Shown: one piece after another, positions 7,014 through 19,611 of the stretch
Position numbering within the stretch: the stretch's first letter is position 1
How the letters are laid out: each line of letters begins with the position of its first letter
NCBI GenBank assembly: GCA_020073005.1
Contig: JAIQFX010000041.1
Span: 1-43,389, forward strand
DNA from: Terriglobia bacterium
GTDB lineage: Bacteria; Acidobacteriota; Vicinamibacteria; Vicinamibacterales; CAVVIG01
Length of the DNA stretch: 43,389 bases
Direction of reading: 5' to 3'
Position numbers and translations under genes: made by a program
The notes under the pieces: generated by a model
What the model was told of the DNA's origin: nothing
Seen by the model: the letters and a program-made list of their open reading frames with translations, nothing else
Databases searched by the model: none

Positions 7014-7838
7014 TTATGGGTGGCTGGTGACTCGTGGCTGGTGGCTGGCGCCTGGCTCGCGGCTGTCCACGCCGGCCGCGGTCACTGGCAACTCGAAATG
7101 GAACCGGAATCCAGCGCCCGCCGAATGCTCGACCTCGAGCGTGCCGCCGTGCGCTTCGACGACGCGCCGGCACGCGGCGAGATCGCCGGACCAGGCGGCC
7201 TCGTCTTCCACGTCGGCGGCCATGCGATCGTCGAGTTCGATCACGAGCCGATCGTCATGCTCGCCGCCGCGCCTCGTCGTCAGCATGATCGTCGCGGGCA
7301 CGGGCCGCTCCGCGGATTCGGGCGTCGATCGCGAGAGCAGCATCACCACGACTCTCTCCAGCTGCCGGCCGTCGACGTAGACGAGCGGCAGCCGATCGGC
7401 GCACTTGAGCTGCACGCGCGTGCCGGATCTCTCCAAGTCGCCGCGGACGGCTTCGGCCGCGTGCGTGACGATGTCGTTGACGTCCTGCCAGCGGCGGCTG
7501 AGCTTGCCCGTCTCGGTAAACGCCAGCAGGTTCCGGACGATGCCCGCGGCCCGAGCGGCGTTCTCCTGGAGCTCTTTCAGATCGTCCGTGGACGCCGGGC
7601 CCGCCGACGCCAGCATCACCTCGGTGTTGCCGAGCATCCCCTGCAGCGGGCTCTTCAGCTCCTGCGCGAGTCCCGACACGAGCTGCCCGACGTGGGCGAG
7701 CTCCTCGCCTTCGCGCATGCGCGCCCGCACGGTGTCCAGCCGCCGGCGGAGGTCGTCGACGGCGCGGCTCCAATGGATTTCGCGCGCGACGAGCACCACC
7801 GCCAGCACTATGGCGATCAGGACCGCTACAGTCGCCAT
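7014..7838 (-). CDS. Membrane-anchored degenerate (pseudo) sensor histidine kinase
   Basis: 274 residues: one N-terminal membrane helix (about 2-18), a short coiled linker, then a HisKA-like helix pair and an HATPase-like domain. The region aligns by eye with the usual VGQLVSGVAHELNNPL, but here it reads VGQLVSGLAQELKSPL. The phospho-accepting His is Gln59 (codon CAG). The N-box Asn is absent (ERVVVMLLSRST) and the G1 box D-x-G-x-G is replaced by DDRMAADVED, while a G2-like AGAGFRF remains. It therefore probably cannot autophosphorylate and may act as a scaffold or binding partner. Its start overlaps the MBL gene by 13 nt. Its last residues (SHQPRVTSHP) come from a CCAGCCAC-type simple repeat. 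Confidence 0.8.
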   Translation of the reverse strand: MATVAVLIAIVLAVVLVAREIHWSRAVDDLRRRLDTVRARMREGEELAHVGQLVSGLAQELKSPLQGMLGNTEVMLASAGPASTDDLKELQENAARAAGIVRNLLAFTETGKLSRRWQDVNDIVTHAAEAVRGDLERSGTRVQLKCADRLPLVYVDGRQLERVVVMLLSRSTPESAERPVPATIMLTTRRGGEHDDRLVIELDDRMAADVEDEAAWSGDLAACRRVVEAHGGTLEVEHSAGAGFRFHFELPVTAAGVDSREPGASHQPRVTSHP

Positions 7839-8647
7839 CGATCGGCCTCACCAGTGACGCGAGTCGCGAGGCCTTCCGCCTTGAGTTTCTCGAGGTGCGC
7901 GCGCACGTTTTCCCGCGCCGCCGCCATCAGCGCCGGCGCGAGACCATGATAGATGGATTCGGCGATCGCCTGCACGCTCGTATGGCCCGCGCGCAGCGCG
8001 TCGATCACCTGGCGCTCGCGCGCGCGGCGATGCTCGAGGTAGCCGGAGAGCACGCGCGCCGGGTGGTCGATCCTGGGGCCGTGCGCCGGCAGGAGCACGC
8101 GCGGCTCGAGCGCCAGCAGCCGTTCGAGCGACGCCATGTACTGCACGAGGTCGCCGCCGGCGCTCGTGTGGATCATCACGCTGCTGCCGTAGACGACCAG
8201 GTCGCCCGTGAACATCGTCCGGCTCGCCTGGTGCCAGAACGCGAGGTGATCGGGAGAGTGACCGGGCGTGTGCAGGACGACGAGCGGCCCGCCGCCAGCG
8301 TCGAGCGTCGCGCCCTCGTCGAGCGCCCGCCACTCCATGGCGTACTGCGCGTCTTCCTGCGGCCAGGGCCGCTTCGCGAACGTCGCGGCGGGATGCGCGC
8401 GCGCGATCGCGGGCGCGCCGCTCGCGTGATCGCGATGCCCGTGCGTGACCAGTACTGACTCGAGACGCGCGTGGCGCGTCTCGAGGGCCGACGCGAGATC
8501 GGCGAGATGCCGCGCGTCACCGACGCCCGCGTCGATGAGCACGGCCGATCCGTCCTCCGCGACGAGCAGGTACGTGTTGTTGCCCGCGCCGGTCATCGGG
8601 CTCGGGTTGTGCGCGGAAAGCAGAAGAGGGTTGAAAGCGCTCGACAT
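7826..8647 (-). CDS. MBL-fold metallo-hydrolase (LACTB2-like)
   Basis: A 273-residue metallo-beta-lactamase fold enzyme. The zinc motif THGHRDHASG is at about residues 68-77, followed by HTPGHSPDHL, a bridging FTGDLVV Asp and a late AHGP His, so all ligands of a dinuclear site are present. A C-terminal winged-helix-like region (about 205-273, with the IAESIYHG and REN-x-RAHLEKL helices) is typical of LACTB2-type proteins, some of which are endoribonucleases while others hydrolyse thioesters. The substrate cannot be told. It is first in a three-gene minus-strand operon. A hairpin at 8653-8672 separates it from the barrel gene upstream. Confidence 0.88.
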   Translation of the reverse strand: MSSAFNPLLLSAHNPSPMTGAGNNTYLLVAEDGSAVLIDAGVGDARHLADLASALETRHARLESVLVTHGHRDHASGAPAIARAHPAATFAKRPWPQEDAQYAMEWRALDEGATLDAGGGPLVVLHTPGHSPDHLAFWHQASRTMFTGDLVVYGSSVMIHTSAGGDLVQYMASLERLLALEPRVLLPAHGPRIDHPARVLSGYLEHRRARERQVIDALRAGHTSVQAIAESIYHGLAPALMAAARENVRAHLEKLKAEGLATRVTGEADRWRL

Positions 8648-8652
8648 GTAGC

Positions 8653-8672
8653 GCGGGTCCTTTTGGACCCGC
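8653..8672. terminator. Hairpin GCGGGTCC-TTTT-GGACCCGC after the outer-membrane barrel gene
   Basis: A perfect 8-bp stem with a TTTT loop, 4 nt past the TAA of the barrel gene. It is the second copy of the repeat at 4380-4401. It likely ends or attenuates the envelope operon before the MBL gene. Confidence 0.55.
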
Positions 8673-8676
8673 CGGA

Positions 8677-10008
8677 TTAGAAACTATACCGAAGCGCGAC
8701 CGTCGCGTGAGAATTCCGGCGGTACTGCCCGAGGAAGTCGTCGCTGGCGCCGGCGATGGCGACGCCCGCGATCGTCGCGCGCCAATGCTGCCCGCGCGTC
8801 TGCGAATACTCGCCCTTGGCGTACACGCCGTCGCCGGACTGGCGGACGGCGCTTTCGAACGCGACGCTGCGCGTGGCGTCGATCGTGTACGAGGCACGCG
8901 CCACGATCGACCGCGTCAGGCCGCGATCGGGCGCGAACGTGAGCGCCGCGCGCCGCGCCGTCACGGCTTCGCCGGCGTAGCCCGCGACGAAGACCCACTC
9001 CCCTGTCTGCCGCTCGAGTTGCACGACGTAGAGCACGTACTCGTCTGTCAGCGGTGTCGTCGACGTGAAGTACGCCGTCTCGGCCTTGATCGTCACCCAG
9101 CGTGTCGGCGCGGCGAGATCCGCGCCGTACGCGCGAATGGCGGGATAGAGCCGCGTCACCTCGATCCGCGCGCCAATCGGGCTCGGCGCCGCGGGCAGAA
9201 CGACGGCCGACTCGATGTTCGGCAGATGGTTGAAGCCGTCGAAGTACGACAGCGCGAATTCCATCCCGGCGCCCACGTGGCTCCAGCGCACGCCGGTCTC
9301 CGATCCTTCGGGCCCCTCTGGAAACGTCGCGCCCGCGTCGACAATCGGAATCGCGGCGGCCTCGGGCGGCACGGCGGTCCAGCGTTGATCGAGCAGCGGC
9401 AGGCGGCTCGGCGTGAAGCGCGGCACCCAGACGACCTCGAACGTGTCGTGATCCTCGGATCCGGTCTGCACGGCGGCGCGCACGCCGGTGACGGGGAGGA
9501 ACTCGGTATCGACGACGTTCATGAAGTCGCGGGGCGCGAAGCGATCGGTCGGCGTGACGATGTCCGTCTTCCCCCAGCGGATGAACTGTTTGCCCGCGTC
9601 GACGGTCAATGCTTTGTGCGTGACGGTGGCGCTCAGGCGGCGGACGGCGATGGACGGCCGCAGCACGCCGCGATCGCTGAAGTCGACGCGCCACGCGCGG
9701 TCCGTTTGATCGTGCGAGTTGAGACGAAGGTCGAGCCCGCCGGCGAACTGAATCCACGGCGCCGGCGTGACGAACACCTCGTCACGGACAAGAAGATCGC
9801 CGACGATGCGCGTGGCGTCGTTGGGCGCGTCCTGCGGAAACAGGAAAGCGCTGCCCTCGACGAACCCGCGCTGCGCGACTGTCTGCGCTGACGGATATCG
9901 CGAAGACACGAAGAACACGAAGAGCACGAAGAGAGATTGGCACACGACCCGCTTCGTGAACCTTCGTGTCCTTCGTGCCTTCGTGATAACCCGCCGCGCT
10001 TCCGTCAT
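8677..10008 (-). CDS. Outer-membrane beta-barrel protein of the envelope ABC operon
   Basis: A 443-residue protein ending in a terminal aromatic motif (VALRYSF), as outer-membrane barrels do, with many alternating-hydrophobicity strands (WVTIKAETAYF, SIVARASYTI, WRATIAGVAI). The N-terminus (n-region of Arg/Lys, h-region LFVLFVFFV, then SSRYPSAQT) reads as a signal peptide, and it is encoded almost wholly by a CACGAAG/CTTCGTG inverted repeat at 9899-9990. The ATG at 10008 overlaps the stop of the LolA-like gene as ATGA, indicating coupling; a GTG just before CQSLFVLF is an alternative start. It resembles the barrel partners found next to LolA-like proteins in exporter clusters, but its cargo is unknown. 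Confidence 0.8.
   Translation of the reverse strand: MTEARRVITKARRTRRFTKRVVCQSLFVLFVFFVSSRYPSAQTVAQRGFVEGSAFLFPQDAPNDATRIVGDLLVRDEVFVTPAPWIQFAGGLDLRLNSHDQTDRAWRVDFSDRGVLRPSIAVRRLSATVTHKALTVDAGKQFIRWGKTDIVTPTDRFAPRDFMNVVDTEFLPVTGVRAAVQTGSEDHDTFEVVWVPRFTPSRLPLLDQRWTAVPPEAAAIPIVDAGATFPEGPEGSETGVRWSHVGAGMEFALSYFDGFNHLPNIESAVVLPAAPSPIGARIEVTRLYPAIRAYGADLAAPTRWVTIKAETAYFTSTTPLTDEYVLYVVQLERQTGEWVFVAGYAGEAVTARRAALTFAPDRGLTRSIVARASYTIDATRSVAFESAVRQSGDGVYAKGEYSQTRGQHWRATIAGVAIAGASDDFLGQYRRNSHATVALRYSF
9899..9990. repeat. CACGAAG/CTTCGTG inverted repeat, copy A, coding for a signal peptide
   Basis: Left arm 9899-9934 (CGAAGACACGAAG... units) and right arm 9952-9990 (CTTCGTGAACCTTCGTG... units) are imperfect inverted repeats of a 7-10 nt unit. 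Read on the minus strand they give the basic and then hydrophobic parts of the barrel protein's leader. Confidence 0.85.
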
Positions 10009-10856
10009 TGACGACGAATGGCCTGAAGCGTGAAGTCTTCGTCCTTGAGCGGCACGTTGTACTCGAGCTTCTCGAGCGTCAGTCGCGTGCGGCTGCCGCG
10101 GCGCAGGTCGGCCATCTCCAGCTGCCGCGCGGTCCAGATGCCCTGCACGTTCTGGATGTCGCTGTAGGCCATGCGGCGGACGACCTGATCCTTGACGTAG
10201 TTCTCGATTCTCGCGAACGCGTAGTCGTCCTTGCGCACCCACACGATCGATTTCGTGTACTGCGACGACTTGCTTTCCTTTGGCGTCGACTGGATCTTCC
10301 AGCAGGCGGCGCCGTCGACGGTGGCGTCGTCCCCGGCGGCGAGCGTGTAGTCGTACTGGTTGACGTCGCGCTCCTCGAGGTCCTCGAAGCTGAAGTCGGT
10401 CCCGAAGAAGCGCGTCGAGCGATCCTGCAGCGCGATCCGGCGGTCGCGCTCGATGGCGGGCGTCCACATCCACTGATCCGACGCGCGGTCGGGGTGATTG
10501 ACGATGAGCATCGCGACGCCCTTCACTTCCGCCGGCGCCGTGAACCGCAGGACGACCTTGCTCTGCCCGTGCGATCCGAGCCGCTCGAAGGTCCACCGCT
10601 TGTCGGCGATCTTCCCTTTCGAGTCGAAGACCTGAAGCACGCCTTCGTAACGCTGCGACTTCGCGTCGGTCCGCTTCTGAGCTTCCTCAACGATCTGCCT
10701 GGCGTTATCAGCGGCGATGAGGCTGGATTGGAGGCCTGTAGGCCACGAAGGCGCGAAGCACACGAAGAAAAAGAAAATGAAATGGAAAGGAAGAACGTGC
10801 ACTCCATTCTTCTTCGTGTTTTCGTGTCTTCGTGGCCACAAGCGTTGCTTACTCAT
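10005..10856 (-). CDS. LolA-like outer-membrane lipoprotein-sorting protein
   Basis: About 283 residues, with the LolA/LppX-like fold expected of the 'outer membrane lipoprotein-sorting protein' family. After the leader comes DNARQIVEEAQKRTDAKSQRYEGVLQV, then strand-rich sequence with WMWTPAIERDRRI, GTDFSFEDLEERD and a C-terminal RLTLEKLEYNVPL...DFTLQAI. Such proteins carry hydrophobic ligands across the periplasm. The leader (RRHENTKK, then FHFIFFFFVCFA) is encoded by a second CACGAAG inverted repeat. ATG 10856 sits 5 nt before the permease stop; a TTG at 10862 is an alternative start. Its own stop overlaps the barrel gene's ATG, so it forms a tight operon with barrel, permease and ATPase. 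Confidence 0.85.
   Translation of the reverse strand: MSKQRLWPRRHENTKKNGVHVLPFHFIFFFFVCFAPSWPTGLQSSLIAADNARQIVEEAQKRTDAKSQRYEGVLQVFDSKGKIADKRWTFERLGSHGQSKVVLRFTAPAEVKGVAMLIVNHPDRASDQWMWTPAIERDRRIALQDRSTRFFGTDFSFEDLEERDVNQYDYTLAAGDDATVDGAACWKIQSTPKESKSSQYTKSIVWVRKDDYAFARIENYVKDQVVRRMAYSDIQNVQGIWTARQLEMADLRRGSRTRLTLEKLEYNVPLKDEDFTLQAIRRQ
10740..10838. repeat. CACGAAG/CTTCGTG inverted repeat, copy B, coding for a signal peptide
   Basis: GGCCACGAAG (10741-10750) and CTTCGTGGCC (about 10828-10837) close the element; degenerate CACGAAG and TTCTTCGTG units lie between. It encodes the n- and h-regions of the LolA-like protein's leader. Confidence 0.85.
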
Positions 10857-13443
10857 ACTCAAGCGCCTCGACGAGCGATCCGCGCACCGCCGACTCCGCC
10901 GGCCAGATCGCCGCGACGAATGCCGCCGCGAGCATCACCGGCACGAGCGCGAGCATCGTCGGGTACGGGAACTCGTAGTCCAGCCGCATGCCGCCGATGT
11001 CGTACTGCACGATTTGCAGAATGTAATAGAGGTTGATCGCGCCCAGCACGAACCCGAGCGTCAACCCGATGACCGCGATGCTCAGCGCCTCCAGCCAGAT
11101 CGTCCGCCGAATCTGGCCCTGCAATCCGCCGACGGCCTGCAGCACGCCGAGTTCGCGGCGCCGGTCGGTGATCGAGACGGTCAGCGTGTTCACGATCCCG
11201 AGGATCGCGACGAGCACGGCGACGGCGATCTGAATCGACGTCAGCCCGAACCACTGGTCGGTGACCCTGAGGATGTACGCCTTCAGCTCGGCGTTGGTCA
11301 GCACGAACACCTGCCGCTGTCCGGCGAACCGCTCGAGAATCCGCTGGCGCACGTCCGGCATCTGGACGCCGGGCTTCAGGTACACGCGCACGACGTTCAC
11401 CGAATCGTCGCCCCAGTACTTCAGAAACTGCCGGCGGTCCACGAAGATCGTGCCCTGTTGATCGGAGAAGTCGACGATGATGCCGACGATCGGCAGGCGG
11501 ACGAGGCCGTTCGGCGCCGGGATCTCGAGCATCTCGCCGAGCGACAGGTGCTGCAGCAGCGCGAGATTGTCGGACACGATCAATCCTTCGCCCGCGCCGG
11601 CGCGGCGGTACATCTGGTCGGCGTTGCCGGCGACCGGCACGCGCTGCGCGGTCTGCGCCATGCTGGCGACCTCGATCGCCACGAGCATGATCGGCGTCTT
11701 GCGGAACACGATGCGCGCGTCGCGCACCGTCTGCACGCGCTCGACGCCGGGAATCGCCGCGATGTCCGGCCCCACGGACGGAGGGAACCGGATCGTGCGC
11801 ACGACGATGCTCTGCGACGGCATGACGAACAGGTCGGGATTGAGCGCCGTCTGCATCCAGTTGATGATCGAGTCGTAACTCGCGCGCGCCATGCCGGCAA
11901 AGGCCACGACGAGCGTCAGCGACAGCATGAGCGCGGCGACGCTCGCGGACGTGCGCCGCGGCGCCTGGATGAGGCTGTCCGCCGCCAGCACGCCTTCGAC
12001 GGGCCGCAGGCGCGTGAGCAGCGGCCGAAGCGCCTTGGCGAGCCCGAGCGAGAGCAGCGGGCTGAGCAGAAGCGCGACGACGATGACGAGCGAGAAGCCG
12101 AGATAGAACAACGCGCGCGCGCCGCCGGCCTGGCGTGACGCCGACGTCAACGGCGGCGCGACGAGGCAGACGAGCGCGATCGCGCCGAGCACGGCGGCGA
12201 GCATTGCGCGCAGGCGGCTCTCGCCCGCCGAGAGCACCTGGTACTTGCCCTTCTGCAGCGCCTGCACCGGATCGACGCGCGCCGCGTTGCGCGCCGGAAT
12301 CGCCGCGGCGACGAGGCTCGTCAGAATCCCGATGACGAGCGCGACGCCGAGCAGCCGGGGATCGGTCGCCAGCGCCTCGGTCGTGCTCTGCGTCTGCCCG
12401 TAGACGTCGCTGATCAGCGTGCCGATCGACGCCGCGATGCCTCTCGCGATCACTACGCCGAACACCACGCCGCCGATCGAGCCGATGAGGCCGGTGACGG
12501 CGCTCTCGCCGAGAAACAGCCAGCGGATCTGCCGCCGCGTCGCGCCGAGCGCGCGCAGGATGCCGATCTCGGATCGCCGCTGCGTCACGGCGATCGCGAA
12601 CGAGTTGTAGATGATGAACATCCCGATGAAGAGCGCGAAGGCGCTCGAGATGTTGACCATCATCGAGTACGCGGCGAGCATCGCCTCGAACTGCTGGCCG
12701 CGGCCCGACGGCGGCTCCACCTGGAATCCCGGTCCGAGCATCGTCTGCAGTTCGCGCTCACATTCAGCAATGGTCCGGCCCGGTCTTACCGCGAGATCGA
12801 TGCGGTCGAACGTGCGGCCGCGTCCGAACATCTTCTGCGCCGCGTAGATGTCCATCACCGCGAGGTTGCCGCCGAACGCGCTCGTGAGAGCTGAGGATTT
12901 CATCACGCCGCGCACGGTGAACGGCTTCTCGCCCTCGGCCGTGCCGAGCGGCAGGCGGCTGCCGACGGTGATGTGATTCTTGTCCGCGAATTCCTTCGAG
13001 AGCATCAGCGAGTCGGGCTGCGCGAGGAAGACGAGCGGATCGTCGATGACGGCGTCCTCGCCGCTCTCGAGGTCGTAGTCGCGGAGGCTGCGGTCGCCCG
13101 TCATGTCGATGCCGAGGATCAGCAGGTTGCCCTGGCCCCCGTGATCGATGGCGTTCGTATCGACGACCGCTTCGATCACCGGGACCGCGACTCTCACGGT
13201 CGACGCCGACTGGACCTTGTCGAGGATCTCCTCGTCGAAGCCGGTCTCGCCCGCGGTCACCTGGATTTCAGTCTTGCCGGCGATGCGATCGACCGTCCGC
13301 GAGAAGCCGTCGAGCACGGTGTGATTCGCCGTGTGCATGCCGACGAAGACGGCGACGCCGAGCACGATGCCCGCGACGGTCAGCAGCGTCCGCAGGACGT
13401 GGCGGCGGAAGTAGGGCCAGCTGATGAGGCGCAGCAGGGTCAT
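10849..13443 (-). CDS. FtsX/MacB-type ABC transporter permease (duplicated)
   Basis: 864 residues with two FtsX-type modules. The N-terminal helix (TLLTVAGIVLGVAVFVGM, about 20-37) and a MacB-like periplasmic domain (about 45-240) are followed by helices around 275-390. A second helix pair and periplasmic domain come next, and a final FtsX block (ILGIVNTLTVSITDRRRELGVLQAVG) ends with VRGSLVEALEYE. The coupling-helix motif appears twice (RRSEIGILRALGATRRQI; RRRELGVLQAVGG). Permeases of this class with LolD-type ATPases drive extrusion or mechanotransmission of lipids, lipoproteins or peptides. It starts 3 nt after the ATPase stop and overlaps the LolA-like start, so lipid or lipoprotein traffic is the best inference. 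Confidence 0.9.
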   Translation of the reverse strand: MTLLRLISWPYFRRHVLRTLLTVAGIVLGVAVFVGMHTANHTVLDGFSRTVDRIAGKTEIQVTAGETGFDEEILDKVQSASTVRVAVPVIEAVVDTNAIDHGGQGNLLILGIDMTGDRSLRDYDLESGEDAVIDDPLVFLAQPDSLMLSKEFADKNHITVGSRLPLGTAEGEKPFTVRGVMKSSALTSAFGGNLAVMDIYAAQKMFGRGRTFDRIDLAVRPGRTIAECERELQTMLGPGFQVEPPSGRGQQFEAMLAAYSMMVNISSAFALFIGMFIIYNSFAIAVTQRRSEIGILRALGATRRQIRWLFLGESAVTGLIGSIGGVVFGVVIARGIAASIGTLISDVYGQTQSTTEALATDPRLLGVALVIGILTSLVAAAIPARNAARVDPVQALQKGKYQVLSAGESRLRAMLAAVLGAIALVCLVAPPLTSASRQAGGARALFYLGFSLVIVVALLLSPLLSLGLAKALRPLLTRLRPVEGVLAADSLIQAPRRTSASVAALMLSLTLVVAFAGMARASYDSIINWMQTALNPDLFVMPSQSIVVRTIRFPPSVGPDIAAIPGVERVQTVRDARIVFRKTPIMLVAIEVASMAQTAQRVPVAGNADQMYRRAGAGEGLIVSDNLALLQHLSLGEMLEIPAPNGLVRLPIVGIIVDFSDQQGTIFVDRRQFLKYWGDDSVNVVRVYLKPGVQMPDVRQRILERFAGQRQVFVLTNAELKAYILRVTDQWFGLTSIQIAVAVLVAILGIVNTLTVSITDRRRELGVLQAVGGLQGQIRRTIWLEALSIAVIGLTLGFVLGAINLYYILQIVQYDIGGMRLDYEFPYPTMLALVPVMLAAAFVAAIWPAESAVRGSLVEALEYE

Positions 13444-13446
13444 TGA

Positions 13447-14196
13447 TTACTCCGGGGCCCCCACCCCGGTGTGCTTCCGCCGCACGTCTTCCCCCGGCGA
13501 CGCCGCGCGTCGCCGGACATCCTCGACGATCGCGCCGTCGCGCAGCGCGATCGTGCGCTCGCAGCTCTGCGCGACATTCATGTCGTGCGTGACGATCACG
13601 ACGGTCGACTTCAGACGCGCGTGCAGATCGCGAATCAGCGTCAGGATTTCCGCGCCGGTGTGCGTGTCGAGGTTGCCCGTCGGCTCATCGGCGAGCAGGA
13701 TCGGCGGATAGATCGAGAGCGCGCGAGCGATCGCGACGCGCTGGCGCTCGCCGCCGGAGAGCTCGTCGGGCAGATGCTGCATGCGCGCGCCGAGCTGGAC
13801 GAGGTCGAGCAGCTCGCGGGCGCGCTCGTCGACTTTCTTGCGCGTCCAGCCGCGCAGGTGCAGCGGCAGGCCGACGTTCTCGAGGCACGACAGCGTCGGG
13901 AGCAGGTTGAAGAACTGGAAGATGAAGCCGATCTTGTCCCGACGGACCTTCGTCAATCCATCGTCGGACAGGTTGGAGAGTTCCTCGCCGTCGACGCGCA
14001 CGTGTCCGGCGCTCGGGCGGTCGAGACCGCCGATCAGATTCAACAGCGTCGACTTGCCCGAGCCCGAGGGCCCGATGATCGCCACCATCTCGCCGCGCGG
14101 AATGGCGAGCGACACGGAGTCGAGGGCCATAACGTTACGTTTGCCTTCGAATTGTTTCGTAACGCGATCGAGCTCGATCGCCGTGGCGGTGGACAT
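13447..14196 (-). CDS. ABC transporter ATP-binding protein (LolD/MacB class)
   Basis: A 249-residue nucleotide-binding subunit: Walker A GPSGSGKST (about 40-48), Q-loop FQFFNLLP, signature LSGGERQRVAIARAL, Walker B ILLADEPTGNLD and H-loop VTHD are all intact. TGNLD after Walker B and the Q-loop FNLLPTLS are typical of the LolD/MacB/FtsE class that pairs with FtsX-type permeases, consistent with the permease gene 3 nt downstream. The tail after about residue 225 (VRRRAASPGEDV...) is probably disordered. The ATG at 14196 lies 54 nt after the stop of the selenoprotein gene, with a stem-loop between them. Confidence 0.95.
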   Translation of the reverse strand: MSTATAIELDRVTKQFEGKRNVMALDSVSLAIPRGEMVAIIGPSGSGKSTLLNLIGGLDRPSAGHVRVDGEELSNLSDDGLTKVRRDKIGFIFQFFNLLPTLSCLENVGLPLHLRGWTRKKVDERARELLDLVQLGARMQHLPDELSGGERQRVAIARALSIYPPILLADEPTGNLDTHTGAEILTLIRDLHARLKSTVVIVTHDMNVAQSCERTIALRDGAIVEDVRRRAASPGEDVRRKHTGVGAPE

Positions 14197-14221
14197 GCGT
14201 CGGCTTGTGGAATGTGTGCGT

Positions 14222-14240
14222 GGCGCTCGAACCGAGCGCC
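14222..14240. terminator. Stem-loop between selenoprotein and ABC ATPase genes
   Basis: GGCGCTC and GAGCGCC form a 7-bp perfect stem with a GAACC loop. There is no T tract, so it may be a weak terminator, an attenuator or an mRNA-end stabiliser. Confidence 0.4.
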
Positions 14241-14250
14241 CTCAGACGCC

Positions 14251-14460
14251 TCAGGTGCCGCCGAATCCAATCGTGACCGTGCCATCGTCGGCCAGGATGA
14301 CCGGCACGGCGCGGCGTCCCTGGCTCAGGCCGAGCATCCGCTCGAGCTCGGCCGGGTTTTTCTTGACGTTGATGTACTCGAACGCGACGTGCCGCCGACC
14401 GAAGTCCTCACGGGCGGCCTGCGTGTAGGGTCACGTGTCCTTGCCGAAAATGATCGTCAT
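14251..14460 (-). CDS. Glutaredoxin-like UXX-star selenoprotein, UGA (Sec) at codon 10
   Basis: From ATG 14460 the frame reads MTIIFGKDT, then TGA (14433-14431), then PYTQAAREDF and on through YINVKKNP, RMLGLSQGRRAVPVI to TIGFGGT and TGA at 14253-14251, 69 residues in all. The UGA sits exactly where the first Cys of a CPYT glutaredoxin site belongs, giving U-P-Y-T. This matches my recollection of the small UXX-star selenoproteins (GKDTUPYT...AARE...INVKKNP...GRR-VPVI...GFGGT). Both sides of the UGA are conserved, so it is not a random stop. A hairpin 12 nt downstream could be the SECIS. The likely role is thiol/selenol redox chemistry in the cytoplasm. An ORF caller would miss it or start it late. 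Confidence 0.88.
14391..14418 (-). promoter_or_regulatory. Candidate bacterial SECIS hairpin
   Basis: Twelve nt after the UGA, GCCGCC pairs with GGCGGC. Inside, GAC-TTCG-GTC forms a second helix, with CGTGAG unpaired on the 5' side. Position and size fit bacterial SECIS elements, which lie in the coding sequence just after the UGA. The apical loop would need checking against SelB preferences. Confidence 0.5.
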
Positions 14461-14474
14461 TTCGTCATTGTACC

Positions 14475-14546
14475 GGGTCCGACCCCGGTCCGACCCGGGT
14501 CCGATAAGGGTCGGACCGGGGTCGGACCCTGTTGCGGTTCTTGCAG
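14475..14546. repeat. REP palindrome left of RAYT gene
   Basis: Arms 14475-14494 and 14510-14529 (GGGTCCGACCCCGGTCCGAC and its complement) are perfect 20-nt inverted repeats. They are followed by a tail TGTTGCGGTTCTTGCAG. The right-hand copy at 15272-15332 has the same order and orientation. Confidence 0.9.
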
Positions 14547-14658
14547 TGTTCGGCAGGTCTGGGGCTGGCTAAATCTGCGGTGGTCTCTTGACGATCAATC
14601 ACGGGTCAATCACTTACACGGTGTTTCGCTGAGATCGAATCTTGCACCGCCGATCGCT

Positions 14659-15255
14659 ATGGCGCGAAAGCTGCGAGTACTTGTCCCTGGTCTCAGTCTG
14701 CACGTCATTCATCGCGGAAACAATCGCGGGTCGACGTTTCAGGACGACCGTGACTACGAATGGTTCATGGCCATCCTTCGAAAGACCGTGGCGCGCTACG
14801 AGGTGTCGCTCCACGCCTATGCGCTGATGCCGAATCACTACCATCTCTTGGTGACGCCGACTGATGGTTCCGCGCTTCCACATGCGATGAAGGCGCTCGG
14901 GGTTCGCTATGTCGGGTACTACAACCGCAAGTACGGCCGGAGCGGGACGCTTTGGGGTGGGCGGTATCGTGCGTTTCACATCGAAGACGAGCAGTACTGG
15001 CTGACCTGTCTGCGGTACATCGAGCAGAATCCGGTGCGGGCTGGTATGGTCCGGTCACCGGAGGAGTACCCCTGGTCGAGCTATCGCGCTCACGCTCTTG
15101 GTAAGGCACCGTCATGGCTCACGGCGCACTCGGTCTACCTGGCGCTCGGTGCGGACGCACAACAGCGCCAATCGGCCTATCGAGCGATCTGCGATCCGTT
15201 CTTGAGCGAGACCGACCTGGCCGACCAAAGGCTCGACGCCGCAGGCACACCGTGA
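14659..15255 (+). CDS. REP-associated tyrosine transposase (Y1_Tnp/IS200-like HUH)
   Basis: 198 residues of the Y1 transposase superfamily, REP-associated branch. Residues 5-20 give the family start (LRVLVPGLSLHVIHRG). The HUH motif is NHYHLLV, with H60 and H62. The catalytic Tyr lies in the helix RYVGYYNRKYGR (about 83-94), followed by SGTLWGGRYR and the family signature CLRYIEQNPVRAGMV, then EYPWSSYRAH. RAYTs nick and mobilise REP hairpins and are usually domesticated single-copy genes. The ATG at 14659 is chosen because family similarity begins there; the frame is open far upstream with no similarity. All motifs are intact, so it may be active. Confidence 0.92.
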   Translation: MARKLRVLVPGLSLHVIHRGNNRGSTFQDDRDYEWFMAILRKTVARYEVSLHAYALMPNHYHLLVTPTDGSALPHAMKALGVRYVGYYNRKYGRSGTLWGGRYRAFHIEDEQYWLTCLRYIEQNPVRAGMVRSPEEYPWSSYRAHALGKAPSWLTAHSVYLALGADAQQRQSAYRAICDPFLSETDLADQRLDAAGTP

Positions 15256-15271
15256 GCGACCTCGAGCTGGA

Positions 15272-15332
15272 GGGTCCGACCCCGGTCCGATCGGGGTCGG
15301 ACCGGGGTCGGACCCTGTTGCAGTTATTGCAG
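15272..15332. repeat. REP palindrome right of RAYT gene
   Basis: GGGTCCGACCCCGGTCCGA (15272-15290) and its complement (15297-15315), with a 6-nt loop, then TGTTGCAGTTATTGCAG. The tail contains the stop codon (TTA, 15324-15326) of the opposing thioesterase gene. Confidence 0.9.
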
Positions 15333-15731
15333 CCCTTCCAGCAGCGCCTTCGCCGTATCGGAGAGTGGCACGGCTTTGCCCGCTTCGTAGTCGTAGCCGA
15401 CCATGACGGTCTTCCCTGTGGCGACGAGCGTCGAGCTTCCGAGGTGGACGATCTCGTATGCCAGCGCGAAGCTGGACCGCCCGATGTCGCCGACCGTCAG
15501 CCGGACCTCGACCTCGTCGCCGAAATGTACCGGTGCGCGGTAGTCGCATTCCGCGCGCGCGAGGATCACGCGGCCGTACGGCGACGCGGCGCCCGTCTGC
15601 TCCTTCCAGAACGTCAGCCGGCACTGCTCGAAGTACGTGAAGTAGACGGCGTGATTCGCGTGGCCCATCGCGTCGCAATCGCGGAAGCGGACGCTGAGCC
15701 GGTGTCGATAGACGAAACGATCGGTGGCCAT
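15324..15731 (-). CDS. Acyl-CoA thioesterase, 4HBT (YbgC/FadM-like) family
   Basis: 135 residues, a full-length single hot-dog domain. The active-site stretch RFRDCDAMGHANHAVYFTYFEQ (in part) carries the family Asp (D-A-M-G-H-x-N-N/H) that defines 4-hydroxybenzoyl-CoA-type thioesterases; RAECDYRAPVHFGDEVEV and GRSSFALAYEI are also typical. It should hydrolyse an acyl-CoA in the cytoplasm, chain length unknown. It diverges from thyX with only 23 nt between the two starts. The C-terminal GLQ and stop lie in the tail of the REP element, so the original end may have been altered by that insertion. Confidence 0.9.
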   Translation of the reverse strand: MATDRFVYRHRLSVRFRDCDAMGHANHAVYFTYFEQCRLTFWKEQTGAASPYGRVILARAECDYRAPVHFGDEVEVRLTVGDIGRSSFALAYEIVHLGSSTLVATGKTVMVGYDYEAGKAVPLSDTAKALLEGLQ

Positions 15732-15737
15732 GCGCGG

Positions 15738-15743
15738 TAGAAT
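15738..15743 (+). promoter_or_regulatory. Putative -10 hexamer TAGAAT upstream of thyX
   Basis: TAGAAT ends 11 nt before the GTG start of thyX, with no Shine-Dalgarno in between. It is the same hexamer as before the DUF5674 gene. Confidence 0.35.
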
Positions 15744-15754
15744 ACTCGACCACC

Positions 15755-17380
15755 GTGGGCTTCCCGACCGTCGCTGCTGAAACCTTCACACCCGAAGAAA
15801 CGCGCGCGCTCGAACCTTACTTCACCAACACCGACCGGCCGGTCTTCGCGCTGACGAATCTGCCGGAGACCGTCAAAGGCGCGCTCTTCGCGCGCTACTC
15901 GCGATCCGCGAAGTCGGTCCGGCGCCTGTTCCTCGACGAGTTCCTCGGCGAGATGCGATCGGCGGCGGCGACTCGCGCAACCGCCGTGGGAACGGAACGC
16001 GCCGATAAGCTCTACGCGCGCGTCCTCAGCGAATACGGAGACGACTCGGTCGCGCAGCTCGGCGGCGCGCACATCGCCTGCGAGGGCGTGTCGAACGTGC
16101 TGACGAAAGTGCTCGAGTGGGGACGCCTGATGGCGTACCTCGAGCAGTCGACGCGCTACGTCCCGTACACCGACAAGCCGGGCGGCCGCTGGAAGTATCA
16201 CGTGCCCGCCGAGCTCGAGCGGTCGCCGCTGAAGGAACAGTTCGTCCGCACGATGGACGCGGCCTTCGAGGCCTACGCGCGCTGGATCCCGGCGATGGAG
16301 GATCACTTCCGCGCGAAGTACCCGAAGTCGCCGGAGGATTCGGACTTCGTCTACAAGTCCGTCATTCGCGCCAAGGCGCTCGACACGCTGCGCGGCATGC
16401 TGCCGGCCGCGACGATGTCCAACGTGGGACTCTTCGGCACGGGCCAGGCATTCGAGGCGCTGCTGCTCCGGATGTTCGCGCACCCGCTCGAGGAAGTGCG
16501 CGGCTGCGCCCAGCAGATGCTGACCGAGCTGCGTCACGTGATTCCCGCGTTTGTCGCGCGGCTCGATCAACCGAATCGCGGCGGACGCTGGATCGAGTAC
16601 TTCGCGCGCACGCGCGACGATTTCCAGGCCGCCGCCCGGCCGTTCGTCGAGCACCTTGAGAATGTCGCGACCGACGCGCGCGGCCCTGGCAAAGACGTCA
16701 CGCTCACCGGCTTCGATCCCGACGGCGAGACGAAAGTCGTGGCCTCCGCGCTCTACTCGGCCTCCGCGCTCCCCGACGACGAGCTCCTCGCGATCGCGCG
16801 GCGCCTGTCACCGGACGATCGCGTCGCGCTGCTCCGCGCGTACATCGGCGACCGCGCCAACCGCCGGCACAAGCCCGGCCGCGCGTTCGAGCGCACCAGC
16901 TATCGCTTCGACATCCTCGCCGACTACGGCGCGTTCCGCGATCTGCAGCGCCACCGCCTGCTGACGCTGGACTGGCAGCCGCTCAGCACGCGTCACGGGT
17001 ACGTGGAGCCGGCGGCGATCGAAGAAGCCGGCGCGCTCGCGGACTGGCGCGCGGTGATGGATCGATCCGCGGATCTCTACGAGCGCATCAGCTCGGCCGG
17101 CCTCACCCTCGTCGCGTCCTACGCCGTCGTCATGGCGTACCGCGTGCGGTTCTACATGGACATGAATGCGCGCGAGGCGATGCACGTGATCGAGCTGCGC
17201 ACCTCGCCGCAGGGCCATCCGTCGTACCGCCGCATCTGCCAGCTGATGCACACGGCGATCGGGGAGGTCGCGGGCCATCGCGCCATCGCAGCCGCGATGC
17301 GGTTCACCGATCATTCAGAAGTGGAGCTGGAACGCCTGCAGTCGGAAAGGAATATGGAGAAAAAACGGAATAGTCGTTAG
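15755..17380 (+). CDS. thyX: Tandem-domain FAD-dependent thymidylate synthase (ThyX), long form
   Basis: 541 residues, about twice a normal ThyX, with two ThyX-like halves. The first (about 85-260) has the GGAHIACEGVSNV helix and EQSTRY (130-135) but reads LEWGRLMAY where the RHR of the motif RHRxxSxxxxSxR should be. The second (about 380-510) has RHRLLTLDWQPLSTR (399-413) and MNAREAMHVIELR. The RHR triad for FAD/dUMP is thus only in the second half, so sites may be asymmetric. ThyX makes dTMP from dUMP using methylene-THF and NAD(P)H. The start is GTG, as no ATG is near. Long ThyX-like proteins are known in several phyla; catalysis here is not assured. The last three residues are read from a simple repeat. 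Confidence 0.85.
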   Translation: MGFPTVAAETFTPEETRALEPYFTNTDRPVFALTNLPETVKGALFARYSRSAKSVRRLFLDEFLGEMRSAAATRATAVGTERADKLYARVLSEYGDDSVAQLGGAHIACEGVSNVLTKVLEWGRLMAYLEQSTRYVPYTDKPGGRWKYHVPAELERSPLKEQFVRTMDAAFEAYARWIPAMEDHFRAKYPKSPEDSDFVYKSVIRAKALDTLRGMLPAATMSNVGLFGTGQAFEALLLRMFAHPLEEVRGCAQQMLTELRHVIPAFVARLDQPNRGGRWIEYFARTRDDFQAAARPFVEHLENVATDARGPGKDVTLTGFDPDGETKVVASALYSASALPDDELLAIARRLSPDDRVALLRAYIGDRANRRHKPGRAFERTSYRFDILADYGAFRDLQRHRLLTLDWQPLSTRHGYVEPAAIEEAGALADWRAVMDRSADLYERISSAGLTLVASYAVVMAYRVRFYMDMNAREAMHVIELRTSPQGHPSYRRICQLMHTAIGEVAGHRAIAAAMRFTDHSEVELERLQSERNMEKKRNSR

Positions 17381-17423
17381 TCGTTGGTCGTTAGTCGTTG
17401 GTCGTTGGTCACCAGCCACTAGC
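17372..17423. repeat. Simple repeat (TCGTTGG/TCGTTAG units, then CACCAGCCACTAGC)
   Basis: Tandem 7-9 nt units TCGTTAG and TCGTTGG follow and include the thyX stop codon. The IS481 element inserted at the end of this tract; the sequence resumes at 18452. Confidence 0.75.
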
Positions 17424-18451
17424 TGTGAATGTCAAAGAGGTTGTTCATTACGCAGCCTCTTGGAAACGCGTCCACGGCGAGCGCCGGCCGAGGCTCGTAT
17501 GGGGACGCCGGTGGTTGTAGAAACGCAGGTACGGGACCAACGCGGCCGTGCGACGCGCGGAGCTGGGGAAGGCGTGGCGATAGGCCCATTCGCGCAGCAG
17601 CGTCTGAATGAAGCGCTCGGCCTTCCCGTTCGTGCGCGGGGTGTAGGGCCGCGTGAAGCGATGGCGGAGTTGCCAGGTGCGACAGACCCCCTCGAAGCGG
17701 CGCGACCGGTACCCGCCGCCGTTGTCGGTCAGCACACGACGGATCGTGACGCCACGGCGCCGAAACCAGCCGAGCGCATTCCGCAGGAACGCCGCGCAGG
17801 CGCGGCGGCGTTGCGATCGCCGGACTTCGACATAGGCCACGCGGGTCGCATCGTCGATCGCCACGTGGACGTACTCATACCCGACGCCGCGGGCTTGACG
17901 GGTCCGATCCCCATGGATCCGATGGCCGACGCCGCGAATGCGACTCAGCGGCTTGATATCCAGATGCAGCATGTCGCCCGCGTGCGGCCACTCGTACCGC
18001 TGAATGACGGGCGGCACGTCGAGCCGGCTGACGCGATTCAGCCCGGCCCGCTGCAACACGCGCGTCACCGTCGATCGCGGCACGCCGACGCGGGCACTGA
18101 TTTCCCACGCCGTCGCGCGCTGATGCCGGTACGCGAGAATCGCGGTCGTCCGCGCCACGTCGAGCGTCCGGGGCTGCCGATGCGGGCGCGACGAACGATC
18201 TTCCAGCGCCGCGTCACCGCGGGCCAGCCACTTGGCGACGGTGCGCACGCTCACGCCCGCGGCCTCGGCCGCCTGCCGCTGCGTCCAGCCCTGCCGGCGC
18301 ACGCGGCAGATGAGCATTTGTCGCTGATACACATTCGTCTTCGCATTACGATGGGACGTCATTCGGGAGGCCCTCCAGAGGCAACGGGTTGGTGTGAGAA
18401 CCCCCATTGTTTCCAGAGTCTCCCGAATGAACAACGTGTTTAGCATTCACA
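17424..18451 (-). mobile_element. Complete IS481-family insertion sequence, 1028 bp
   Basis: Terminal inverted repeats TGTGAATGTCAAAGAGGTTG (left) and TGTGAATGCTAAACACGTTG (right, complement) continue through TTCATT with 4 mismatches over 26 nt. A perfect 6-bp target duplication ACTAGC flanks it at 17418-17423 and 18452-18457. Only one gene is inside, and it is intact. The perfect duplication points to a recent insertion. Confidence 0.95.
17448..18362 (-). CDS. IS481-family transposase
   Basis: 304 residues. The N-terminal helix-turn-helix region reads RQMLICRVRRQGWTQRQAAE and VSVRTVAKWLARG (about 13-52), followed by a second DNA-binding helix set with STVTRVLQRAGL. The DDE catalytic core has HLDIKPL, LTDNGGGYRS and NGKAERFIQTLLREW, giving the D-D-E triad, and RPYTPRTNGKAERF is characteristic of IS481. 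The ATG at 18362 starts right before the conserved region; the open frame runs on to 18446 through the terminal repeat. TAA lies in the left inverted repeat. The gene appears intact. Confidence 0.95.
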   Translation of the reverse strand: MTSHRNAKTNVYQRQMLICRVRRQGWTQRQAAEAAGVSVRTVAKWLARGDAALEDRSSRPHRQPRTLDVARTTAILAYRHQRATAWEISARVGVPRSTVTRVLQRAGLNRVSRLDVPPVIQRYEWPHAGDMLHLDIKPLSRIRGVGHRIHGDRTRQARGVGYEYVHVAIDDATRVAYVEVRRSQRRRACAAFLRNALGWFRRRGVTIRRVLTDNGGGYRSRRFEGVCRTWQLRHRFTRPYTPRTNGKAERFIQTLLREWAYRHAFPSSARRTAALVPYLRFYNHRRPHTSLGRRSPWTRFQEAA

Positions 18452-18466
18452 ACTAGCCACCGACTT

Positions 18467-19015
18467 CTAATCCTCTTCCTTCCTCCAATACCGCGAGTAC
18501 TCTTCCAAGAACGTCAGCGTGTCGAACGTCCGCATCCGATCGAAGAACAGCATGCCGTCGAGGTGATCGGTTTCGTGCTGAATCACGCGGGCCGGAAAGC
18601 CGTGCGCGCTCAGCTCGATGCGCTCGCCGAACCGATCGAACGCGCGCACCTTGATTTCCTTCGCGCGCGGCACCTTCCCGCGCACGTCGGGAATGCTCAG
18701 GCAGCCCTCCCAATCCTCGACGATCTCCTGGCCCACGACCGTGATCTCCGGATTGATGATGGCGAAGGGCTCGTCTTTCGACTCATTTTCTTTGCCCTTG
18801 TCGTCTTCGCCCGAATCGAGCATCGCGACGAACAGCCGCAGGCCCTCGTGCACCTGCGGCGCGGCGAGGCCGACGCCGTGATACTCGCTCATCGTGTCGA
18901 GCATGTCGTCGATCAGCCTCTGCACCGGCGCGGTCCGGATTTCTGATCGCTCGAGCGGTCTCGCCTTCGAGCGCAGCACGGGATGGCCCATGCGCGCGAC
19001 TTTCAGAATGGACAT
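18467..19015 (-). CDS. def: Peptide deformylase
   Basis: 182 residues. All three deformylase motifs are present: GVGLAAPQ (about 48-55), EGCLSIP (with the metal Cys) and QHETDHLDG (HExxH with the catalytic Glu). It removes the N-formyl group from nascent proteins with an Fe or Zn ion. An Asp/Glu/Lys-rich insert (DSGEDDKGKENESKDEP) sits between motifs I and II, longer than in E. coli Def. The ATG at 19015 matches the family start (MSILKVARMGHPVLR); the frame is open further upstream without similarity. It diverges from the Nudix gene across about 20 nt. Confidence 0.96.
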   Translation of the reverse strand: MSILKVARMGHPVLRSKARPLERSEIRTAPVQRLIDDMLDTMSEYHGVGLAAPQVHEGLRLFVAMLDSGEDDKGKENESKDEPFAIINPEITVVGQEIVEDWEGCLSIPDVRGKVPRAKEIKVRAFDRFGERIELSAHGFPARVIQHETDHLDGMLFFDRMRTFDTLTFLEEYSRYWRKEED

Positions 19016-19026
19016 CTCACTGAAAT

Positions 19027-19032
19027 TATACT
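19027..19032 (+). promoter_or_regulatory. Putative -10 hexamer TATACT upstream of the Nudix gene
   Basis: TATACT ends 6 nt before GTG 19039. That is the spacing expected if transcription begins at the start codon. No Shine-Dalgarno is present. Confidence 0.4.
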
Positions 19033-19038
19033 GTGCGC

Positions 19039-19611
19039 GTGATTGAAGATCCGCATGGGTTCCGCTTCTGTCCACGCTGCGGAGGTCCGCTCGAGCGCCG
19101 GCTGCTGAAATCGACCGAGCCGGAGCGTCCCGTCTGCGCGCGCTGCGGCTTCATCTACTACATCGACCCCAAGATCGCCGTCGGCACGATCATCGCCATC
19201 GATGAAGGGCTCGTGCTCGTGCGGCGCGCGATCGAGCCGGGCTACGGCAAGTGGGTGTTTCCGGGCGGCTACGTCGATCGCGGCGAGCCGCTGACCTCGG
19301 CGGCGATTCGCGAGGCGCGCGAAGAATGCGGCCTCGAGATCCGTCTCGACGCGCTGGTGAATGTCTACTCGTACGCCGGCCGCGCGCCGGTGATCGTCGT
19401 GTACGCGGCGACGGCGGTCGGCGGCACGCTGACGATAGACGAGGAAAGTCTCGAGAGCGCCGCGTTCGCGCGCGACGCGCTGCCGTGGGACGACCTCGCG
19501 TTCCGCAGCACGCACGAGGGCCTCAGGAATTATCTGGACGGTCTTCGGCATCCAGTCCACGAGGCGAACGCCAATGCAACCACGAAAACACGAAGGCACG
19601 AAGAAGAGTGA
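19039..19611 (+). CDS. Nudix hydrolase with N-terminal zinc ribbon
   Basis: About 190 residues. A zinc ribbon comes first (FCPRCGGPL ... PVCARCGF, two CxxC knuckles, about 10-40), then a Nudix domain whose box is complete: GGYVDRGEPLTSAAIREARE then ECGL (G-x5-E-x7-REUxEExGU). The layout resembles NudC/ADP-ribose pyrophosphatase-type Nudix proteins, but the substrate is not evident. The start is GTG; 19033 (MRVIEDP) is also GTG. The C-terminal NATTKTRRHEEE is read from a CACGAAG repeat, so the original tail was probably replaced or extended. It diverges from def. Confidence 0.88.
   Translation: MIEDPHGFRFCPRCGGPLERRLLKSTEPERPVCARCGFIYYIDPKIAVGTIIAIDEGLVLVRRAIEPGYGKWVFPGGYVDRGEPLTSAAIREAREECGLEIRLDALVNVYSYAGRAPVIVVYAATAVGGTLTIDEESLESAAFARDALPWDDLAFRSTHEGLRNYLDGLRHPVHEANANATTKTRRHEEE

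Follow-up and report, generated by a model that had tools for sequence, protein, structure and literature searches.

A probable double-selenocysteine glutaredoxin-like protein of UXX-star family 1 in an acidobacterial genome, with a likely SECIS element beyond its stop codon

The stretch of DNA analysed here (the window) comprises positions 1 to 43,389 of contig JAIQFX010000041.1, from the draft genome GCA_020073005.1 of a Terriglobia bacterium (Acidobacteriota, Vicinamibacterales). On its minus strand, at 14242..14460, lies a gene of 72 codons plus a TGA stop which, by its reading frame, its homologues and its match to the NCBIfam profile NF041114, is assigned to UXX-star selenoprotein family 1. 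Translation from the ATG at 14460 gives MTIIFGKDT-U-PYTQAAREDFGRRHVAFEYINVKKNPAELERMLGLSQGRRAVPVILADDGTVTIGFGGT-U-GV (72 amino acids, U being selenocysteine, Sec), ending at the TGA at 14244-14242. Two in-frame TGA codons are read as Sec in this translation. The first is codon 10 (14431..14433), at the active-site position of a glutaredoxin (U-P-Y-T); the second is codon 70 (14251..14253), which is followed by GGC GTC TGA, giving the C-terminal layout U-G-V-stop, with the true stop (TGA, 14242..14244) three codons past Sec70. An initial annotation, made from the letters alone, had described 14251-14460 as an ATG frame interrupted only by a TGA at codon 10. The ATG and the TGA at codon 10 were correctly placed, whereas the end at 14251 was wrong and the TGA at codon 70 was missed as a second Sec codon. 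The sequences which that annotation had singled out (GKDT-U-PYT, INVKKNP, GRRAVPVI and GFGGT) were all found again, on the minus strand, which it had not stated. Read on the plus strand, 14251-14460 encodes a different peptide without any TGA, and that reading was discarded.

The suggestion that this is a UXX-star selenoprotein was borne out. NF041114 (UXX-star selenoprotein family 1) matched with 108.5 bits (E 1.5e-31, cut-off 72) over positions 2-68 of its 70, when the query frame was given up to codon 70; in the search of the whole genome it scored 97.7 bits, over the cut-off, and aligned over positions 2-70. The Pfam glutaredoxin domain PF00462 scored 40.9 bits (cut-off 22.9). The profiles of UXX-star families 2 (NF041211) and 3 (NF047338) and of the HUGP/GUXX-star fusion (NF045501) represent a related domain and gave 58.3, 48 and 56.1 bits, none of which reaches the curated cut-off of its profile (100, 97 and 325, respectively). 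The name UXX-star appears, in our own reading, to describe U-x-x-stop, i.e., the C-terminal Sec layout. In a table of a 2026 review, NF041114 is entered as "Distant Grx-like protein 1 (UXX-star selenoprotein family 1)" and is given the motif UxxT and 2 Sec (PMC13188914); the same review cites Haft and Tolstoy 2025 for related UXX-star families. The protein of the window shares with that family the profile match, the UPYT motif, the C-terminal U-x-x-stop and the two Sec, and nothing was found that excludes membership. It is a further member of a family already catalogued as having two Sec. The accessible part of the review's source, Zhang and Gladyshev 2008 (PMC2398784), does not mention the second Sec of this family, and no experimental study of the family was found in the open-access literature.

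Homologues were sought in a sample of 396 genomes of the phylum, and NF041114 scored over its cut-off in 44. Genomes and loci are designated below, where needed, by our own G and L numbers. Three contig-edge fragments were left out (L061 and L062 from G131; L063 from G295, below the cut-off), leaving 43 full-length genes, counted in 43 of the 44 genomes: the window gene and 42 homologues from other genomes. Loci were counted with a pattern that required Sec or Cys at position 70 together with Val or Ile at position 72, and all loci apart from L061-L063 fitted it; the profile search is itself biased toward genes that have the C-terminal Sec tail. Codon 10 is TGA in 39 of the 43 genes and a Cys codon in the other 4. 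Codon 70 is TGA in all 43. Residue 71 is Gly in 37, Ser in 3, and Glu, His or Arg in 1 each; residue 72 is Val in 42 and Ile in 1; and the stop that follows is TGA in 36, TAG in 5 and TAA in 2. Codon 70 is thus always TGA, while the stop two residues further on varies between TGA, TAG and TAA; codon 70 is therefore best explained as an amino-acid codon. Ten loci from named metagenome-assembled genomes, which may overlap in part with the genomes of the 43 genes, gave a similar picture: TGA at codon 70 in 10/10, Cys at position 10 in 3/10, and a TAA or TAG stop in 7/10. Six of these are from Acidobacteria (64-84% identity), two from Planctomycetes, one from a Deltaproteobacteria and one from a Candidatus Brocadiaceae, so that conservation of codon 70 outside the phylum refers to four loci. 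Sequence comparison shows that both UGA codons are conserved as coding codons, and Sec70, invariant in the sample, is the steadier Sec position of the two.

These counts bear on two other explanations of the in-frame TGA codons. The first is that the gene has decayed or that the assembly contains an error, as could occur in a draft of 5.86 Mb in 179 contigs (rated 100% complete); since dozens of other genomes have the same TGA codons, and the surrounding sequence is conserved at the level of codons, this explanation has a negligible chance. The second is that codon 10 alone encodes Sec and that the TGA at 14253-14251, being the next in-frame TGA, is the true stop of a 69-amino-acid protein, a product which is itself predicted to fold as a glutaredoxin. 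This would not account for a codon 70 that is TGA in 43/43 genes and is always followed by x-V/I-stop (TAA or TAG in 7 of them), for an NF041114 profile that runs through codon 70, for the covarying hairpin that follows codon 70, or for the poorer structural model obtained when the tail is removed (87.3 vs 96.0, see below), and it is very improbable. From sequence, the protein is almost certainly a glutaredoxin-fold, double-selenocysteine member of UXX-star family 1 (NF041114).

The hairpin which follows codon 70 is the candidate selenocysteine insertion sequence (SECIS) for Sec70. It lies at 14222..14240 on the minus strand, beginning one base past the stop codon (14240-14222), and was not reported in the initial annotation. 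It consists of GGCGCTCG-GTT-CGAGCGCC, i.e., a stem of 8 bp and a loop, GTT, that starts with G. The review's rules for bacterial SECIS elements are, besides a free-energy condition, a loop of 3-9 nt, a stem of 4-16 bp, a G in the first two loop positions and a distance of 16-37 nt from the UGA to the loop (PMC13188914). The window hairpin, with 18 nt between the Sec70 UGA and the loop, satisfies the rules for loop, stem and spacing, the ones applied here, as do the hairpins of 39/43 genes in all. Since the anchoring procedure takes the best hairpin of each sequence, the same procedure was applied to shuffled sequences and to a downstream control. Perfect stems of 6 bp or more were found in 34/43 genes, compared with 7/43 in the control located 60 nt further on (Fisher p 6e-9), while a mean of 17% of shuffles reached such a stem. 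Alignment of the 3′ hairpins with MAFFT did not register the loops, so base pairs were counted on loop-anchored hairpins: in 35 distinct stems of 5 bp or more, G-C and C-G interchange at each of the seven positions numbered from the loop, and A-T or T-A occurs at five of those seven. A terminator-like T-rich tail follows the hairpin in only 2/43 genes. Bacterial SECIS elements are described in the review as located in coding regions (PMC13188914), whereas the Sec70 hairpin is situated past the stop codon; an Rfam scan of the window returned nothing at gathering thresholds. Taken together, the 3′ hairpin is very probably the SECIS for Sec70.

The situation at codon 10 is different. A candidate SECIS for Sec10 lies inside the coding region at 14393..14423 (minus strand), around the conserved GCCCGTGAGG (14415-14406). 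The hairpin which the initial annotation had placed after the codon-10 TGA can indeed be folded, but it is no stronger than that of dinucleotide shuffles (z 0.58; 146/200 shuffles fold at least as well), nor is its folding energy distinctive against synonymous recodings. Folding energy, undistinguished in shuffles, in recodings and in the comparison of Sec genes with Cys genes, was dropped as evidence for a SECIS at codon 10. What is distinctive at this site is the sequence GCC CGT GAG. The Ala codon is GCC in 39/39 Sec genes, compared with 71/161 elsewhere in the same genes, and the Arg codon is CGT in 32/39 Sec genes, compared with 11/154 elsewhere in the same genes; GCC CGT occurs in 32/39 Sec genes and in 0/4 Cys genes (p 0.003). 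The conserved GCCCGTGAGG speaks for a putative RNA signal at codon 10. As a double selenoprotein gene, the window gene appears to pass every sequence test that was made, except for the folding energy at codon 10.

The machinery for decoding UGA as Sec is present in the host genome. The gene for tRNA-Sec (selC) was found with 60.4 bits, over the gathering score, and was given the anticodon tca by ARAGORN; selB (347.6 bits), selA (541 bits) and selD (349.4 bits) were all over their curated cut-offs. Thus, the core inference of the initial annotation, that the organism decodes UGA as Sec, is supported, while its observation of the frame itself was confirmed in part. Of the two findings which it had named as refuting, neither was made: selB and selC are there, and the layout is preserved in the 42 full-length homologues. 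SelD is itself a Sec-containing protein (L014, contig C133:33644-34573), whose in-frame TGA encodes the U of CAGU, and the hairpin directly after the selD TGA has a folding energy of -22.6 kcal/mol in 48 nt. Across the phylum, selA was found in 40/44 genomes that carry the UXX-star gene and in 210/352 that do not (p 2e-5). This association was counted by hand from the search tables, a selA match being counted at E 6.9e-91 or better; 250 of the 396 genomes were over the selA cut-off, and all 40 gene-bearing ones were counted among them, which gives the 210 of 352.

Upstream of the gene, the hexamer TACAAT (14467..14472, minus strand) resembles a -10 element and ends 6 nt before the ATG. It is kept in four relatives: in L034, L064, L065 and L066, as in the window gene, TACAAT or TAGAAT stands at precisely this distance from the ATG, but it does so in none of the other relatives compared. 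A consensus promoter scan found no -35/-10 pair. This arrangement suggests a leaderless, or nearly leaderless, mRNA in this subgroup. Further upstream, on the plus strand, is a Y1 transposase gene of the type associated with repetitive extragenic palindromes (RAYT; 14659-15255, PF01797). It is flanked by two such palindromes (REPs) of 60 nt (14487-14546 and 15273-15332), which form a direct repeat and are 92% alike. One arm of a REP palindrome starts within 12 bases of the selenoprotein ATG, and the stretch just upstream of the gene is REP sequence. Transposase and REPs (14472-15332) separate the selenoprotein gene from a 4HBT thioesterase gene on its upstream side. The RAYT transposase was found in 0/52 other loci, and the REP-flanked transposase-like gene just upstream is a feature of the window locus among members of the family. 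A frame of 332 amino acids at 17448-18446 (minus strand) also resembles an integrase or transposase, judged by eye from the list of open reading frames (ORFs).

Downstream, on the minus strand, the next gene encodes an ABC (ATP-binding cassette) transporter ATPase (13447..14196, PF00005), followed by an FtsX/MacB-type permease (10849..13443, PF02687 and PF12704) and a LolA-like outer-membrane lipoprotein-sorting protein (10005..10862, PF17131). The initial annotation had attached the gene to an envelope ABC operon. The operon does adjoin it, but the ATPase stands beside the gene in only 5/52 other loci (L064, L069, L076 and L090, with a remnant in L066) and says little about function. More frequent near the gene in the 52 other loci are peptide deformylase (11), ThyX (9), the 4HBT thioesterase (8; directly adjoining the gene in, e.g., L065, L069 and L076) and a metallo-beta-lactamase-fold hydrolase (7). 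The region 7826-19075, which contains deformylase, ThyX, thioesterase and hydrolase, is a syntenic block of long standing among near relatives. Between the selenoprotein gene and the hydrolase, L066 (413-2358) holds only remnants of the ABC ATPase (60 amino acids aligned) and of the permease (122 amino acids aligned), and L065 (6001-7210) has no match to either. The ABC operon seems to be gained and lost at this site. In 42 loci of the phylum (each up to 8.2 kb, some ended by contig ends, and with the window's own excluded), no neighbour cluster was common to more than 5, apart from antisense frames over the gene itself in 8; the ORFs were chosen longest first, which may drop real genes. Because no neighbour cluster is common to more than 5/42 loci, the function of the protein cannot be read from the ABC operon.

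The structure of the protein was predicted with AlphaFold2. The best full-length model (predicted local distance difference test, pLDDT, 96.0) has the glutaredoxin fold without the last helix, and has bridge residues at 51-52 and at 70-71. When the last three residues were removed, the best model reached a pLDDT of 87.3 and lacked the bridge at 51-52. The simplest reading of the models is that the tail would pair with the strand just before Pro53 (the cis-proline), in the glutaredoxin groove. The strand before the cis-proline is where glutaredoxins hold glutathione. The nearest solved folds were NrdH (4fiw, Z 10.6; 1h75, Z 9.9) and glutaredoxins (Grx3, 3grx, Z 9.6), in a comparison (VIA-align) that spans model residues 1-68, i.e., excludes the tail. 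Classical glutaredoxins such as Grx3 (3grx) resemble the window protein in fold, in PF00462, in the position of the cis-proline and in the GG turn. They differ from it in several ways: a classical dithiol glutaredoxin has C-P-Y-C (C-x-x-C), whereas the window protein has U-P-Y-T; classical glutaredoxins have a helix after their GG-x-D turn, whereas in the model there is no helix after residue 45 or after the GG turn and the protein ends at residue 72; and where glutaredoxins have GG-x-D, the window protein, aligned by eye, has Sec. In a glutaredoxin crystal structure described in PMC8161271, the two residues directly after the GG kink (Gly, Asp) hold the place of the gamma-glutamyl group of glutathione. 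When aligned by eye, Thr-Sec of the window protein fills the position of those two residues.

Classical glutaredoxins differ from the window protein also in that its host genome has no match for glutathione synthesis: neither glutamate-cysteine ligase GshA (TIGR01434, PF04107) nor glutathione synthetase GshB (PF02955) was matched. BshC of bacillithiol synthesis was found there with 429.6 bits. The strong BshC and the lack of a glutathione-synthesis match point to bacillithiol as the small thiol of the host.

From these features, the following scheme may be proposed. SelB, acting on the two hairpins, would deliver Sec-tRNA at codons 10 and 70, and the third UGA, nine bases past codon 70, would terminate translation, being too near the hairpin loop. 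The loop starts 18 nt after the Sec70 UGA and 9 nt after the stop UGA; thus, spacing by itself, under the rule of 16-37 nt, could account for the reading of the former as Sec and of the latter as a stop. In the protein, Sec10 would attack an oxidised partner; the Sec70 tail would lie over what is the glutathione-binding groove in glutaredoxins, beside the cis-proline, and Sec70 would resolve the intermediate by forming an internal Se-Se (or Se-S) bond, which a bacillithiol- or thioredoxin-type system would then reduce. The protein would thus carry its own glutathione substitute. The combination of a double-Sec family member, a 3′ SECIS and chemistry between Sec10 and Sec70 is, as a whole, probably the best explanation of the locus. 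Its chemical part is more tentative: an intramolecular Sec10-Sec70 relay, with Sec70 as an internal resolving selenol that replaces glutathione, is the role for Sec70 that we favour, though we give it somewhat less than an even chance. The full reading (a glutathione-independent glutaredoxin with an internal Sec10-Sec70 diselenide in its groove, with Sec70 inserted by a SECIS in the 3′ untranslated region and the UGA nine bases on still a stop) is a shade more doubtful again.

Two other roles for the second Sec have to be weighed against the relay. The protein could be a bacilliredoxin- or NrdH-like redoxin whose Sec70 reaches out to a partner, as the tail of animal thioredoxin reductase does, and forms no bond with Sec10. 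The inclusion of NrdH among the best structural neighbours (4fiw, Z 10.6) and the presence of BshC would fit this, and animal thioredoxin reductase, with its C-terminal Sec tail (Gly-Cys-Sec-Gly), is a precedent; it likewise has a Sec near the C-terminus on a short tail, but differs as an enzyme and in its eukaryotic SECIS, and no homology is claimed. NrdH-redoxin (4fiw, 1h75) is similar to the window protein in fold and size, whereas the NrdH profile TIGR02194 gave the latter 33.1 bits, below its cut-off of 85.75, and NrdH is not known to carry a C-terminal Sec. Since the tail is only three residues long after GGT, and is docked in the protein's own groove in a high-confidence prediction, an outreaching Sec70 is rather unlikely. 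Alternatively, the two selenols could form a site for a soft metal or metalloid in a scavenger or chaperone, rather than in an oxidoreductase, and the predicted position of the tail in the groove would suit such a two-ligand site. With no metal-resistance gene among the nine neighbouring window genes that were run against Pfam, no neighbour recurring (by strict clustering) in more than 5/42 loci of the phylum, and a UPYT position which is that of the catalytic nucleophile of glutaredoxins, we regard metal binding as unlikely, and slightly more so than an outreaching Sec70.

Several points weigh against the combination of double Sec, 3′ SECIS and Sec10-Sec70 relay. Its support consists throughout of sequence and prediction, and the host genome is rated 4.63% contaminated. 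In 9/43 genes the perfect stem of the hairpin does not reach 6 bp (it has 5 bp in six genes and fewer in three); at codon 10 the folding energy does not distinguish Sec genes (mean z -1.0, n=39) from Cys genes (-1.3, n=4); and four gene-bearing draft genomes are without a convincing selA (G341, with E 4.4e-5, and G226, G276 and G104, with no match). The models were built from 11 sequences with Cys in place of Sec; across the five full-length models, mean pLDDT ranges from 96.0 to 80.6 (93.8 to 80.6 for the four other than the best), and the pairing of 70-71 with 51-52 is a deduction from two secondary-structure strings. BshA is below its cut-off in the host genome. Moreover, the comparison across the phylum gives no support for a link to missing glutathione. 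At a threshold of 100 bits, which was our own choice, GshB exceeded it in 1/44 gene-bearing genomes and in 19/352 others (p 0.71), and at the Pfam cut-off GshB was commoner with the gene (18/44) than without it (72/352; p 0.004). Other ATP-grasp ligases probably account for the weaker matches, because Bacillus subtilis and archaea also match in the control. As the association was either null or reversed, the standing given to the relay and to the glutathione-free reading was lowered slightly for each.

The 3′ SECIS and the idea of a tail in the groove are the parts worth pursuing. With a first UGA as early as codon 10, genes of this kind are easily missed by ORF callers. When a SECIS lies outside coding sequence, its base pairs are free to show by covariation, which is less so for a coding one. 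Here, three UGAs stand in one message of 73 codons, two of them apparently Sec and one a stop, with the last two only nine bases apart, so that a single short gene could serve to test how a bacterium decides between Sec and stop. If the reading proposed here is true, this natural arrangement would be a clean assay of how SelB tells UGAs apart by distance alone.
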